The position numbers and the translations under genes were made by a program. This document shows, one piece after another, positions 39,093 through 57,775 of a stretch of 59,163 nt of DNA (position 1 is its first letter; each line of letters starts with the position of its first letter). The notes under the pieces are model-generated. The model did not search any database, was not told where the DNA came from, and was given only the letters and a program-made list of their open reading frames with translations. This DNA comes from an uncultured Pelagibacteraceae bacterium (GTDB taxonomy: Bacteria; Pseudomonadota; Alphaproteobacteria; Pelagibacterales; Pelagibacteraceae). The stretch spans positions 1 through 59,163 of the forward strand of contig CACIZC010000007.1 in NCBI GenBank assembly GCA_902591045.1. The letters are read 5' to 3'.

Positions 39093-39413
39093 TTAGTTTC
39101 TTCTGATTTCTTCAAGAATTTTCTTTTCTAAATTTGAAATAGATTTATTTCCTTCTGAAGAAGAAGTTTCTTCGGTCGACAATATTGATTTGACTTTATT
39201 GTTATTTTCTTTTGTTTTCTGACTACTTTTTGGTAAAGGTAATTCATCAAATTCAGGGGGTAAAATTAACGGATCTTTCTTTTTAATCAAAAATTCATCT
39301 GTAGAATAATCTTTTTCACCCGACATTGTTTTTTTAACCTCGCTCAGTGTCTGACAATTGCCTAAAAATAATGAAATAAAAATTATAAAGATATTTTTTT
39401 TTATCAATTTCAT
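39093..39413 (-). CDS. Lipoprotein, DUF3035-like
   Basis: A 106-residue exported lipoprotein. The hydrophobic signal ends in the lipobox LGNC near residue 19, so Cys is lipidated after cleavage. The conserved segment [20 protein letters not shown] suits the alphaproteobacterial DUF3035 family; the rest is low-complexity and charged. A longer frame up to 39503 lacks a plausible start and would lie in lspA, so the ATG at 39413 is used, which overlaps the lspA stop as ATGA. It lies next to the signal peptidase that would process it. Function unknown. Confidence 0.78.
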
Positions 39414-39913
39414 TGTATATCTTTTTTGAATAAAAATTCTTTTAAAATCATAAATAAAACACCAATAGAAATGAAAATGTCGGCAACATTGAAGGTGAAC
39501 CAATGATAATTTTCTATATGAAAATCTATAAAATCTGGAACAGCAAAGAAGGTCAATCTGTCATATAAATTTCCCGCTGCACCGCCCACAATTAGGGATA
39601 ATATAATTTTTGATGAATTGTCTGAAACAACCATAAGATATATTAGATAAACAATTATTAACAAAATTAAGGCAGAAACTAAATGATAGAATAGATTGGC
39701 ATTAGAACTTAGTAATCCAAAAGCTATTCCAGTGTTCCAATTTAACGTTAAATTTAGAAAATCGTACAAAAATATTTCCCTTTCTTGAGATTGTATTAAC
39801 CCTATAACATATATTTTTGACAACCTGTCTATTGCAAAAATTACTAATGTTATAATAAAGCTGTACAGGTCAATTTTTTCTAATTTTATTTTATCTCTGA
39901 GCATCTTGAGCAC
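39410..39913 (-). CDS. lspA: Signal peptidase II
   Basis: A 167-residue inner-membrane aspartyl protease that removes the signal peptides of lipoproteins. Four helices; the two catalytic Asp residues are in [19 protein letters not shown] (near residue 114) and [13 protein letters not shown] (near 143), and [11 protein letters not shown] is the other family motif. The N-terminus overlaps the 3' end of ileS by 28 nt; a second ATG 9 nt further in is an alternative start. The ileS-lspA pair is common in Proteobacteria. Confidence 0.95.
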
Positions 39914-48135: not shown

Positions 48136-49447
48136 TTGATAGATCTTCAATTTTAACAGAACTCTCATTGCCGGTCTCAAGATTTTTTAAAGTTACTTTT
48201 CCTGATTTTATTTCATCATCTCCGTACAAAATAACAGCTGGAGAACCTATTTTGTTTGCATACTCCATTTGTTTTTTTAACTTACCTTCTCCTGGATAAA
48301 TCTCAGAACTAATATTTGAGATTCTAAGTTTATTTAATATTTTAATATATTCTTTAATTTTATTTTTATCAAAAACACATATGATTACTGGTCGTGTAGG
48401 TTTTATTTTGAAATCTTTTTTTTGCATCAAAGCAAATACCAATCTGTCAAGACCAATTGATATTCCAGTTGCGGGACAATCAAGATTTCCAAAATTGCTT
48501 ACTAGATTATCATATCTTCCTCCTCCACCTATTGATCCAAATTGAATAGCTTGTCCTTTTGAATTTGTTACCTCAAAATTTAAATTAACTTCAAAAACAG
48601 GTCCAGTATAATATTCCAAGCCTCTTACAACTGATGGATCGAATTTATAATTTTTAAAATCATAAGCCTGAAATATTTTAATAATTTCTAATACATCTTT
48701 ACTATCAGGTGTTTTGCTCTTCAAAGCATTTTCGATTATTGTAATCTGATTGTTTTTGAGATTTGCTCCCTTTGTATAATCTCCTGACTTATCTTTTCTG
48801 CCCTCTCCAAGAAGTTTCTTTGCTTCTCGCCAACCAAGTCTATCGATTTTGTCAAGGGCACGTAGTGTGGTTGACATTTGGTCTTTTGATTTAATATTTA
48901 GCTGCTCAAACAATTTATCAGTGAATTTTCTAGAAGAAATTTTTACAGTGTAGTCTACTTTCTCTAAACCGCACTTTTCTAATATCTCAGATATTAATAC
49001 GCAAAGTTCAGCATCTGCTTGTAAATTTTTTGTCCCTACATAATCTGCATCGAATTGTAAAAATTCTCTAAATCTTCCAGGTCCTGGTTTTTCATTTCTC
49101 CAAACCGATCCTAGCTGATAACGCTTAAAAGGTTTTGGAAGTTCAAGGTAATTTTTTGCAACATATCTTGCCAGTGGAGCTGTAAGATCGTATCGAAGTG
49201 ATAACCAGTTTTTTTCATCTTTAAAAGAAAATACTCCTTCGTCTGGTCTTTCTTTGTCAGGCAAAAATTTTCCAATGCTGTCCGTATACTCGAAACTTGG
49301 TGTTTCAAGATATTGAAAGCCGTACTTAATCATAACTTCTTTAATATTAGAAATTACAAAGTCACGGATTAATAGTTCTTTTTCTTGCCTGTCTACAAAA
49401 CCTAAAGGTAATTCCTTTGAAGGTTTTAGTTTTTTTTCTTTTACCAT
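48113..49447 (-). CDS. hisS: Histidyl-tRNA synthetase
   Basis: A 444-residue class II synthetase. Motif 2 is FKRYQLGSVWRNEKPGPGRF near residue 115, the His-specific motif GLEYYTGPVFEV near residue 275, motif 3 is GISIGLDRLVFAL near residue 330; the C-terminal anticodon-binding domain begins near VIICVFDKN. The start is ATG at 49447; a longer frame to 49513 would have to use a TTG inside the tRNA gene and would translate the tRNA. This ATG follows the CCA end of tRNA-His after only AAAA, so no ribosome-binding site is present. Confidence 0.95.
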   Translation of the reverse strand: MVKEKKLKPSKELPLGFVDRQEKELLIRDFVISNIKEVMIKYGFQYLETPSFEYTDSIGKFLPDKERPDEGVFSFKDEKNWLSLRYDLTAPLARYVAKNYLELPKPFKRYQLGSVWRNEKPGPGRFREFLQFDADYVGTKNLQADAELCVLISEILEKCGLEKVDYTVKISSRKFTDKLFEQLNIKSKDQMSTTLRALDKIDRLGWREAKKLLGEGRKDKSGDYTKGANLKNNQITIIENALKSKTPDSKDVLEIIKIFQAYDFKNYKFDPSVVRGLEYYTGPVFEVNLNFEVTNSKGQAIQFGSIGGGGRYDNLVSNFGNLDCPATGISIGLDRLVFALMQKKDFKIKPTRPVIICVFDKNKIKEYIKILNKLRISNISSEIYPGEGKLKKQMEYANKIGSPAVILYGDDEIKSGKVTLKNLETGNESSVKIEDLSNEIKKLL

Positions 49448-49451
49448 TTTT

Positions 49452-49528
49452 TGGTACAGCAGGGTGGATTCGAACCACCGACCCCTAGTTCCACAAACTA
49501 GTGCTCTAACCAACTGAGCTACTGCTGC
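49452..49528 (-). tRNA. tRNA-His (GTG)
   Basis: A complete cloverleaf with encoded CCA: acceptor GCAGCAG/CTGCTGT, D arm GCTC/GAGC, anticodon arm CTAGT-TTGTGGA-ACTAG with anticodon GTG, T arm GGTGG-TTCGAAT-CCACC. The discriminator is A73 and the first pair is G1-U72; the base before G1 is T, so the extra G-1 of most tRNA-His is not encoded. This is the alphaproteobacterial form of His identity. It is transcribed towards hisS, whose ATG is 4 nt past the CCA. Confidence 0.96.
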
Positions 49529-54072: not shown

Positions 54073-54393
54073 TTAAAAAGGAGTTTTTAAGTCAAAAGGA
54101 AGACTGACTCCGCCTGTAGCCTTTAAAAGTTCTTCGGAAGTTTTTTTTTTTAGCTTATCTTTGGCGTCATTATAGGCGGCTAAAATTAGATCACTAACGA
54201 TTTCGTTCTTTTCCTTTTTTGTATCTTCGCTTATATAAATTGATTTCATTTCATAATCACCTTTCAAAATTACTTTTACTAGGTTACCGCCAGAACTGCC
54301 TTCTACTTCGATGTTTTTTAAGTTTTCCTGAACTTCTTTCATTTTCTCTTGCATTTTTTTTGCTTGGGATAGCATGTCAGAAAAGTTAGTCAT
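54073..54393 (-). CDS. YbaB/EbfC nucleoid-associated protein
   Basis: A 106-residue DNA-binding protein. MTNFSDMLSQAKKMQEKMKE at the N-terminus and the Gly-rich GSSGGNLVKVILKGDYEMKS strand region are family hallmarks; VSDLILAAYNDAKDKLKKKT closes the helix. The ATG at 54393 is preferred over one 12 nt earlier because the family starts there. It overlaps the dnaX stop by 8 nt and lies between dnaX and recR. Confidence 0.93.
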   Translation of the reverse strand: MTNFSDMLSQAKKMQEKMKEVQENLKNIEVEGSSGGNLVKVILKGDYEMKSIYISEDTKKEKNEIVSDLILAAYNDAKDKLKKKTSEELLKATGGVSLPFDLKTPF

Positions 54394-56041
54394 TTTTCTC
54401 TTCAACCTCAGTTAAATCTGCGTCAGAAAATATCTTTGAAAATTCTAATACGGTCTGACTTTCTTTTTCTTTATCTAGAATTTGATTTTTGTCGTCTATT
54501 TTTTGCTGATATAAAGTTTTTGAGCTTTCATCTTTGCTAAGAGTTATAATCCACCTCTTCTTTGTCCATTCAAAAAGGCTTTGTGAAAGTTTTTTTATAA
54601 AACTTTCGTTAAGTTTTTCATTAAAATTTATATCTATTTTTCCATTTTGAAAATTTATAACTCTAACATTTCTTTCAAGATCAAATTTTAATTCTAACTC
54701 TTTCTTTTGCTCGGCAAGACTTACTAGTTCATCAAATGTTTTGATTTCAACAGCGCTGTCTAAATTTTTCTTTGTTAAGCTTTTTATCTGATCTGTATTT
54801 TTAAGCTGATCTTTAAGAGTTTTATAATTTAAATCATTTTTGTTTTCTTCGATCTTATTTGTGCTTTTGAGTGATTTGCCAGAAACAATATTTGAAAAAC
54901 CTGGTATTGAGTCATTCTCATCGATATTTTTTAAATGAATTAACTGCATCAAATACATTTCTAGAGCAATATTTTCATTAGACACGACTTTTATATCATC
55001 TATAGTTTTTAGCGTTAGTTGCCAAAATAATCCTAGATCTTGCATGTTGAGATTTTTGCTGCTTTTTTCAATTAAGTCTAATTCTCCCTCCGAAAGAAAC
55101 ATGTCTTTTTCAATAGTTCCTAAATTTACAGTTCTTCCAAATAAGTAAATCAGTTCTAAAATATCATTCAGAAAATTTTTTGCATCTAGCCCCTGGTCTA
55201 AAAGTTCTTTTAATTCTTTTAAAGCTTGTTTTTCTGAACCATCTAGAACAGATTTTAACAAATTTATTAATTTAGATTTGTCTGCAAGGCCAAGCATTTT
55301 TCTTATATCTTTTTCGTCAATAATTGTTTCACTATTCAAACTTTGAAAAACTAAAGCTCTATCAAGAAGAGATATACCGTCTCTAACAGATCCTTCGGAA
55401 GCTCTTGCTAATAATTTTAAAGCATTATCCGAGATTTTTCCTTTTTCTAAACTTGAGATTTTTTTTAAGTGTTCAAACATCTTTGATAATTCAACTCTTT
55501 TTAAATCAAACCTTTGACATCTAGATAAAATTGTTACTGGAATTTTTCGTGGTTCGGTTGTTGCTAAAATAAATTTAAGTTTTTCAGGTGGTTCTTCTAA
55601 AGTTTTTAACAGTCCGTTAAATGCCTGTTTAGATAGCATGTGTACTTCGTCTATTATGAAAATTTTATATTTTGCACTTGTGGGATTGTATTTTGCATTT
55701 TCGATTAATTCTCTAACATCATCTATTCCTGTTTTAGAAGCCGCATCCATTTCTAATACATCAATATGATTGGAATTCTCAATTTCTACACAATGCTGGC
55801 AGAAGTCTTTGTCGTCACAAACTTTTTTATTATTATTTTCACAATTAAGATTTTTTGCAATAAGTCTGGCTGAGGTAGTTTTGCCTACCCCTCTGATTCC
55901 AGTTAAAAGATAAGCATTGGGAATTTTGTTGATGCTGATAGCATTTGAAATTGTCTCAGCTACCACCTCCTGTCCTATGAGTTGTTTAAAAGACCTTGGT
56001 CTATATTTTAAAGCTAAAATTTTTGAATTATTAAATCTCAT
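54386..56041 (-). CDS. dnaX: DNA polymerase III subunits gamma/tau
   Basis: A 551-residue AAA+ clamp-loader ATPase. N-terminal ALKYRPRSFKQLIGQE, Walker A LTGIRGVGKTTSARLIAKNL near residue 46, a zinc site with Cys at NCENNN, VCDDKDFCQHC, Walker B IFIIDEVHMLSKQAFNGLLK and the sensor ILATTEPRKIPVTILSRCQR are all present. The C-terminal part that binds the polymerase and helicase is short and weakly conserved. The gene starts 7 nt after the SRP RNA. Confidence 0.97.
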   Translation of the reverse strand: MRFNNSKILALKYRPRSFKQLIGQEVVAETISNAISINKIPNAYLLTGIRGVGKTTSARLIAKNLNCENNNKKVCDDKDFCQHCVEIENSNHIDVLEMDAASKTGIDDVRELIENAKYNPTSAKYKIFIIDEVHMLSKQAFNGLLKTLEEPPEKLKFILATTEPRKIPVTILSRCQRFDLKRVELSKMFEHLKKISSLEKGKISDNALKLLARASEGSVRDGISLLDRALVFQSLNSETIIDEKDIRKMLGLADKSKLINLLKSVLDGSEKQALKELKELLDQGLDAKNFLNDILELIYLFGRTVNLGTIEKDMFLSEGELDLIEKSSKNLNMQDLGLFWQLTLKTIDDIKVVSNENIALEMYLMQLIHLKNIDENDSIPGFSNIVSGKSLKSTNKIEENKNDLNYKTLKDQLKNTDQIKSLTKKNLDSAVEIKTFDELVSLAEQKKELELKFDLERNVRVINFQNGKIDINFNEKLNESFIKKLSQSLFEWTKKRWIITLSKDESSKTLYQQKIDDKNQILDKEKESQTVLEFSKIFSDADLTEVEEKND

Positions 56042-56194: not shown

Positions 56195-57041
56195 CTATTT
56201 TTTTTCTCTAAAAGTAGAAGACTCATAAACACCAAGGATATTTAAGCTTTCAGTATGAAAACCCAATTCCTCTAAAGCTTTTTGTACTTGTGTTTCCTCA
56301 ATATGACCTTCCAAGTCTAAATAAAAATTTGTTTGATCAAAAGTGTTCTTTACAGAGAAACTTTCCAGCTTAGTTAGGTTAACTTGATTGGTTGCAAATC
56401 CACCAAGACATTTGTAAAGAGCTGCTGGTATACTTTTTAACCTGAAAATACAAGTGGTTATATATTTTTTTCCTTTTTTAAACTCAGGTTGATTTATATT
56501 TTTTCCCATTATTAGGAATCTTGTTACGTTATTATTTTCATCTTCGACATTCTTAAATAATATTTTTAGTCCGTAAATTTTGGCCGAAAGTTTTGAGGCT
56601 ATGGCCGCAATAGAAGTATCATTATTTTTTGAAAGTTCTTTTGCAGACCCTGCTGTATCTGCCGATATGATAGTTTTAAATTTATATTTTTTGTATAATT
56701 TTTTGGCATTGGTCTATAGCTTGTGCATGGCTTCTCACATATTTGATATCTTTAAGTTCTGTATTTTCTTTAACCAAAAGATTGTGTTCAACAACTTGAA
56801 AATGCTCAGCATAAATTTGAAGTTTATACTTAGGAAGTAAATAATGAATATCTGCAACTCTTCCGGCTAATGAATTTTCTATGGGAATAATTATTTTATA
56901 GCTATCATCTTCATAAGCAGTTCTGAAAGTTTCTTCAAAAGTTGGGCATGCTTTTATAGAGGCACCCTTAAAAATTTCTTCGGTAGCTATATGTGAATAA
57001 GCTCCTAGCTCTCCTTGAAAAGCAATCTTAAGTGAGGACAT
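56195..57041 (-). pseudogene. pheA: Prephenate dehydratase with a frameshift
   Basis: The two parts together make one 282-residue prephenate dehydratase (phenylalanine pathway). The first frame gives residues 1-119 (LKIAFQGELGAYSHIATEE; IIPIENSLAGRVADIH) and stops at TAA 56682-56684. The second frame carries on without a break as YKFKTIISADTAGSAKE, then the catalytic NNVTRFLIMG and the ACT domain (SIPAALYKCLGGFA, NLTKLES). The switch falls in an A6 run at 56687-56692 (minus strand); one A fewer restores the frame and aligns the protein with family spacing. It could be a real mutation, a sequence error at the homopolymer, or slippage. The gene follows kdsB, as in other Alphaproteobacteria. Confidence 0.9.
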
Positions 57042-57775
57042 TATTTCTCCATAAGTTTTTTAATTTCAGACAAATCTTTTTCTGTATCAACGCTTAAAGG
57101 ATTTGAATTTATATAACCAACATGTATTTTCATTTTATTTTCTAAAGCTCTCATTTGTTCTAATTTTCTTTCAATTTCTAACTTGCTACGATCTAACTTT
57201 ACATACCGCATTAAAGCTTCGGAAGTAAAGCCATAAATACCAATGTGATGAGAAATGAATTTGCTTTTTTCATTATTTAAAATTCGCATGAAGTCTATGG
57301 CCTCAGAAAATTCATTTCTTTTAATATCGTCTTTTGTAACTACTTTTACAATATTTGGATCTTTAATTTCATCATTATTTTTAAAAAATGAAGATAGTGT
57401 GACCATATCACATTGTTCTTTCTTTAAATAGTTATTCAGTTTTACAATGGCGTCTGAATTTAAATTGGGCATATCACCTTGTAAATTAATAATTAATTTT
57501 GGTTTTTCTAAATAATAATTTTGATAGGCTTCGAAAACTCTGTCTGTTCCGGTTTTATGATCTTTTTTAGAAATATAAGCATTACCTCCATTATTAGTTA
57601 TTAAATCTAATATAGCTTTATCAGGAGTGGTAACCAGCACATCTCCTACACCAGATTTTTTTGCAATATCGTAAACATGCAATATCATCTCTTTATTTTG
57701 AATAATCTTTAATGGTTTGTTTGGAAGTCTTTTAGCTTCTAATCTCGATGGAATTATAATTACAGTGTGACTCAT
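57041..57775 (-). CDS. kdsB: CMP-Kdo synthetase
   Basis: A 244-residue cytidylyltransferase that activates Kdo for lipid A glycosylation by WaaA. IIIPSRLEAKRLPNKPLKII at the N-terminus is the nucleotide-binding motif; LVTTPDKAI, HKTGTDRVFEAYQ and INLQGDMPNLNSD follow, and ISHHIGIYGFTSEALMRYV is the conserved C-terminal motif. The stop shares its last base with the first base of pheA. The cycM and kdsB-pheA genes are divergent here, a known alphaproteobacterial neighbourhood. Confidence 0.95.
   Translation of the reverse strand: MSHTVIIIPSRLEAKRLPNKPLKIIQNKEMILHVYDIAKKSGVGDVLVTTPDKAILDLITNNGGNAYISKKDHKTGTDRVFEAYQNYYLEKPKLIINLQGDMPNLNSDAIVKLNNYLKKEQCDMVTLSSFFKNNDEIKDPNIVKVVTKDDIKRNEFSEAIDFMRILNNEKSKFISHHIGIYGFTSEALMRYVKLDRSKLEIERKLEQMRALENKMKIHVGYINSNPLSVDTEKDLSEIKKLMEK

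Follow-up and report, generated by a model that had tools for sequence, protein, structure and literature searches.

A one-base split of pheA in a SAR11-clade draft contig is most likely an error of the draft sequence at a short A run

Introduction

In a 59,163-nucleotide stretch of DNA from an uncultured Pelagibacteraceae bacterium (contig CACIZC010000007.1; hereafter the window), the gene pheA is split in the deposited sequence. On the minus strand, at 57041-56195, the first frame stops after 119 residues and the remainder of the gene lies in the next frame. Prephenate dehydratase converts prephenate to phenylpyruvate, a step in phenylalanine synthesis. Does the split belong to the living cell, as a recent loss, as a break mended by slippage or as an old pseudogene, or to the draft sequence alone? 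An initial annotation, made from the sequence, had named three options: a homopolymer error, a fresh mutation, and slippage that rescues the protein. The first of these is favoured here, the second is placed behind it, and for the third nothing specific to this locus was found. The accessible parts of the literature on SAR11 pheA frameshifts, on phenylalanine auxotrophy and prephenate dehydratase, and on Pelagibacter pseudogenes and homopolymers hold nothing on this pheA site.

The pheA gene and its neighbours

This SAR11-clade (Pelagibacteraceae) bacterium carries at the locus an ordinary gene for a monofunctional prephenate dehydratase. Its first piece (119 aa; 56682..57041, minus strand; from the ORF list) begins with the ATG at 57041, reads ...QCQKIIQKI and meets a TAA that ends at 56682, just past an A6 run. 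Matches to Pfam PDT (1-114, E 1.6e-31) and PRK11899 (6-120) identify this piece as the N-terminal portion of the prephenate dehydratase domain. The second piece, in the next frame (56195..56689, minus strand), carries the rest of that domain (Pfam PDT 119-179, E 2.7e-16; PRK11899 122-281 of 283, E 5.6e-63) with the ADTAGSA stretch and an NVTRF stretch, which we take to be the TRF motif, followed by a C-terminal ACT-type region. The Pfam search reported no match of the pheA pieces to the ACT model itself; the solved structure nearest to the second piece is 6vh5, a prephenate dehydratase with an ACT domain (E 2.7e-46, aligned over 4-161). Across both pieces the PDT domain is complete (1-114 and 119-179 of 181), and because the two matches do not overlap, the split is not a chance arrangement. 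A chorismate mutase domain is absent, the ORF beginning with the PDT domain in the Pfam search.

Monofunctional PheA proteins (PF00800 with an ACT-type C-terminus; PRK11899) have the same domain order and the same ADTAGSA and TRF stretches as the window gene, whose size also matches that of its relatives (277-281 aa in 89 distinct sequences). The gene order kdsB-pheA-dnaX is common to the window and the relatives. The sole difference is one surplus base, which splits the deposited frame where a monofunctional prephenate dehydratase has an uninterrupted one.

Upstream, kdsB is intact (57041..57775, minus strand; TIGR00466, CTP_transf_3). By the ORF coordinates its stop overlaps the start of pheA by one base, and co-transcription of the two genes is therefore probable. 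The next gene downstream of pheA, dnaX, is also intact (54386..56041, minus strand), and the neighbours kdsB, dnaX, a YbaB-type gene and recR are all whole ORFs according to the ORF list, Pfam and NCBIfam.

Position of the surplus base

The window pheA measures 847 nt, one more than the 846 nt found in those 26 relatives, out of 89 distinct sequences, whose protein has the same length. In the 60 rows listed from a DNA alignment of the 89 distinct relatives, pheA of the relatives is 846 nt or a shorter multiple of three. Together with the reading frames and the Pfam matches, these lengths confirm the initial annotation in its central observation, that one base splits the gene, and its positions for pheA and for two A6 runs near the break were correct. 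The spacing it gave from QC to ADTAGSA, 12 residues, has to be corrected, as the relatives show 14.

Every possible breakpoint between the first and second frame was scored against the 26 equal-length relatives, the other 63 of the 89 being of different length. The best breakpoint leaves 117 or 118 residues in the first frame (score 1211.5) and corresponds to the A6 run (sense strand) at 56687..56692 on the minus strand, which is also favoured by the DNA alignment. The other A6 run, at 56699..56704 (minus strand), corresponds to 113 or 114 residues in the first frame and scores 1202.8, a modest difference of about 9. It is the less likely site because the two residues that follow it in the first frame are conserved isoleucines (residue 115 is I in 25 of the 26 relatives, residue 116 in all 26). 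The preference for 56687-56692 expressed earlier, on the strength of the same conserved residues, is thus upheld, if by a small gap in score. Relatives that have QKY here (L026, L031 and L040) carry five A's, and the remaining relatives use different codons. On this alignment, the relatives most alike at the site have five A's in the run that carries the surplus A.

Condition of the downstream part

The second frame contains no stop in 156 codons. The median ratio of dN in the C-terminal part to dN in the N-terminal part is 0.76 for the window gene, inside the range of 0.66-0.96 seen in the 26 relatives, so the dN of the C part is not raised; dS at this distance is large or undefined. By plain identity, conservation of the C part relative to the N part is a little weaker in the window gene than in most relatives (0.036; median 0.058), only one of the 26 having a lower value. 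The claim that everything downstream of the shift is intact therefore stands, with the small qualification of the plain identity, and, taken overall, these comparisons do not clearly point to an old pseudogene.

Occurrence among relatives

In the genus, 31 genomes, an unselected set, were searched, and 27 had a PDT match. The match is uninterrupted and single in 26 of these 27; only the window genome is split. Both parts of pheA also lie in one frame in all of 110 other loci, a set that leans towards whole genes because it was chosen by best score (the best-scoring 30 matches of one search and the best 80 of 319 named records found by the N-terminal part, giving 89 distinct sequences). The shifted arrangement was thus found in none of the 110 score-chosen loci and in none of the 26 other genus genomes, and a conserved recoding site or programmed frameshift is rejected. 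The nearest relatives are about 78-79% identical in pheA DNA (the nearest genus genome 79%), which means that no copy from the same species was seen.

The order-wide PDT search took in 397 genomes, with a match in 368 and none in 29; as the model covers only part of pheA, C-terminal shifts are missed in these counts. All 11 single-contig genomes have exactly one match (E <= 1.8e-47), the positions being among the matches listed for five of them. More than one PDT match occurs, among the matches listed per genome, in four genomes: the window genome (G000), G351, G400 and G408. The gene is in several frames in G351 (G351:C1:398828-399355, L164), where kdsB is shifted and dnaX apparently so, and in G408 (G408:C16:14422-14952, L162), where kdsB is shifted too; with their neighbouring genes affected as well, these two look like error-rich assemblies. 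G400 belongs to another genus of the family and has a lone one-base split of pheA near residue 158 (G400:C3:6497-7020, L161). This split, too, falls at an A6 run; beside it, kdsB and the part of dnaX that matched each keep to one frame. In G258, G360 and G047 pheA is cut by a contig end. Recurrent decay of pheA in the order was considered and rejected on these cases, given the shifted neighbours in G351 and G408 and the contig ends in the other three; G400 stands as a lone shift.

For 24 genomes that lack a pheA match (20 of the 29 from the order-wide set and 4 of the genus, among them G101, G115, G133, G200, G206, G216 and G293), kdsB was searched as well. Hits were obtained in 7 of the 24, at 30-37% identity (best E 3e-21). 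The kdsB genes that adjoin pheA in the same family give stronger matches (44% in L161 and 42.5% in L165). The whole kdsB-pheA stretch seems to be missing from these genomes, which may reflect assembly gaps or a variable region.

Frequency of similar shifts and the serS control

About half of the window genome (499 kb including the window) was compared with 788 kb of the sister genome G026. At an identity cut of 60%, 372 of 770 G026 ORFs of at least 90 aa were matched over 359 kb of aligned sequence, and pheA was the only shift in the window genome, in a survey that misses shifts near ORF ends or in poorly conserved parts. A smaller first survey with a 45% cut had given one extra candidate, in the genome's own contig 4 (9828-10595), at 49-52% identity and hence below the later cut. 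In 207 kb made up of kdsB, pheA and the first 350 codons of dnaX from 80 named loci, no shift was found, pheA having been part of the selection of these loci.

The reversed survey matched 373 of 498 ORFs and produced four shift candidates in G026. Three are artefacts of ORF calling: one takes a tRNA-His for the beginning of hisS, one is antisense to a second ORF, and one has its start extended over the end of the preceding gene. The fourth stands. It is serS (G026:C6:14660-15906, minus strand, L192), in which a single base breaks the frame at an A run, A6 in G026 and A7 in the window genome; the shift is of the same kind as that in the window pheA. The split copy is the only serS match in G026. 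The gene is in one frame in the other 20 of the 21 genus genomes with a match, 3 of these 20 matches being partial; the remaining 10 of the 31 genus genomes, one of them given as 95% complete, have no match, and these absences are taken as assembly gaps. To our knowledge, no cell lives without serS (seryl-tRNA synthetase). The serS shift is very probably absent from the living cell and probably an error of the G026 assembly; its presence in an indispensable gene indicates that one-base A-run shifts arise in such data without loss of the gene.

The data themselves are relevant here. For 21 of 22 same-genus loci, the pheA sequence is shared with a record bearing an AG- name, although some record titles say MAG, and G026 shares its pheA sequence with CACHPL010000001.1 (AG-430-F03). 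An AG- genome is named as a single-cell genome in the portion of a published report open to us (PMC11247762). The genus relatives are mostly single-cell genomes, and we infer that the genome of the window is a single-cell assembly as well. For the workflow behind such genomes, the available sections of two reports give 1.5 misassemblies, 3.0 indels and 5.0 mismatches per 100 kb (PMC6122165, PMC11247762). The shifts observed here are rarer than that indel rate (1 in 359 kb of the window genome, 0 in the 207 kb from 80 loci), so that the benchmark shows such errors to be ordinary, not that the pheA base is one of them.

Origin of the surplus base

The split is most likely a draft error and not new biology. 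The surplus base would quite probably be an erroneous extra A in an ordinary pheA, introduced by a slip of the polymerase while the whole genome was being amplified, or else in sequencing or assembly; the living cell would carry an intact gene. This reading is favoured because the gene is whole in the 26 other genus genomes, because serS of G026 is likewise shifted, and because rescue by slippage finds nothing specific in its favour here. The case resembles the homopolymer indels that arise as artefacts in single-cell and draft assemblies, in that one base is affected, at an A run, in one genome only and in a gene that is otherwise intact, and serS of G026 repeats the pattern. Less likely, and second in rank, is a genuine insertion, recent and private to this cell or strain, which would have knocked out pheA and left a phenylalanine auxotroph living on phenylalanine that it takes up. 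A runs mutate easily, the rest of the gene is intact, as expected of a young mutation, one coding shift in 372 ORFs shows that errors are not rampant, and G400, in the same order, has its own lone pheA shift at an A6 run. Against it stand the whole pheA in 26 of the 27 genus genomes with a match and the single PDT match in 11 of 11 single-contig genomes across the order (a pheA decayed beyond recognition would escape this search), nor could a cell tolerate the loss of serS that the like shift in G026 would imply. Two of the three other genomes with several matches, G351 and G408, are moreover shifted in neighbouring genes too.

If the extra A were real but tolerated, RNA polymerase or the ribosome would have to slip on the A6 run and restore the frame in part of the product, by a one-base deletion or a +1 step, respectively. 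Such rescue is possible in general; at this locus we regard it as very unlikely. The sequence would permit a +1 slip of tRNA-Lys from AAA to AAA at the run, and in the accessible portions of two reports, indels that shift the frame, at repeats of 3-8 bases, were bypassed in a laboratory gene (PMC3812077), and transcription deletions in AT-rich Buchnera are commonest as single bases, with rates that climb with run length (PMC5574713). According to the same portions, recorded poly(A)-slippage rescues mostly involve runs of 10 or more (PMC3812077), whereas the pheA run has six A's. A rescue by the polymerase needs a deletion, and transcription deletions occur rarely at homopolymers overall: 15 (21%) fell in homopolymers in Buchnera and <1% in E. 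coli, and the part of the study at hand reports that its authors detected no restored reading frame (PMC5574713). The window ORFs of at least 120 aa contain 391 sense A runs of at least six and 203 of at least seven, so the A6 is no special site; it is short and unconserved, and the 203 longer runs lie in intact ORFs. The in-frame codon at the site, ATA, is common (35.5 per thousand), and no rare codon would favour a slip. The absence of the shifted arrangement from the 110 other loci and the 26 other genus genomes further weighs against this explanation. The excerpted discussion in PMC5574713 also treats genes of Buchnera and Blochmannia that are frameshifted at poly(A) tracts and for which slippage rescue was proposed. 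These resemble the window pheA in the AT-rich genome and the A run at the break, but the run is only six A's long and unconserved here. Least probable of all, to the point of being negligible, is an established pseudogene or a pair of separate working proteins. The pieces do stand as separate ORFs as deposited, but pheA shows no clear decay, the break falls inside the PDT domain, and the second-frame ORF in the list, with its ATG at 56509, would yield just the ACT-type region.

Implications for draft genomes of the clade

With the draft error as the preferred reading, the locus serves mainly as a caution. Lone one-base A-run shifts occur in drafts of this clade, even in the indispensable serS of G026, and auxotrophies or pseudogenes should for that reason not be called from them without the reads. 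If the allele were real, a SAR11 cell would have freshly lost the ability to make phenylalanine. A six-A allele that acts as an on/off switch of phenylalanine auxotrophy in SAR11, or that is partly rescued by slippage, is a highly improbable case; if such an allele did segregate or were rescued, streamlined ocean bacteria would tolerate short A-run slips in biosynthesis genes.

Other observations in the window

At 49447-49528 (minus strand), a tRNA-His (49452-49528) ends about 4 bases before the ATG that opens the HisS match, and in the ORF list HisS is lengthened at its N-terminus by the tRNA. At 39410-39503 (minus strand), the lspA ORF and a DUF3035 ORF, both called from their first possible starts, overlap by 94 bases, which is probably a matter of start-site choice.
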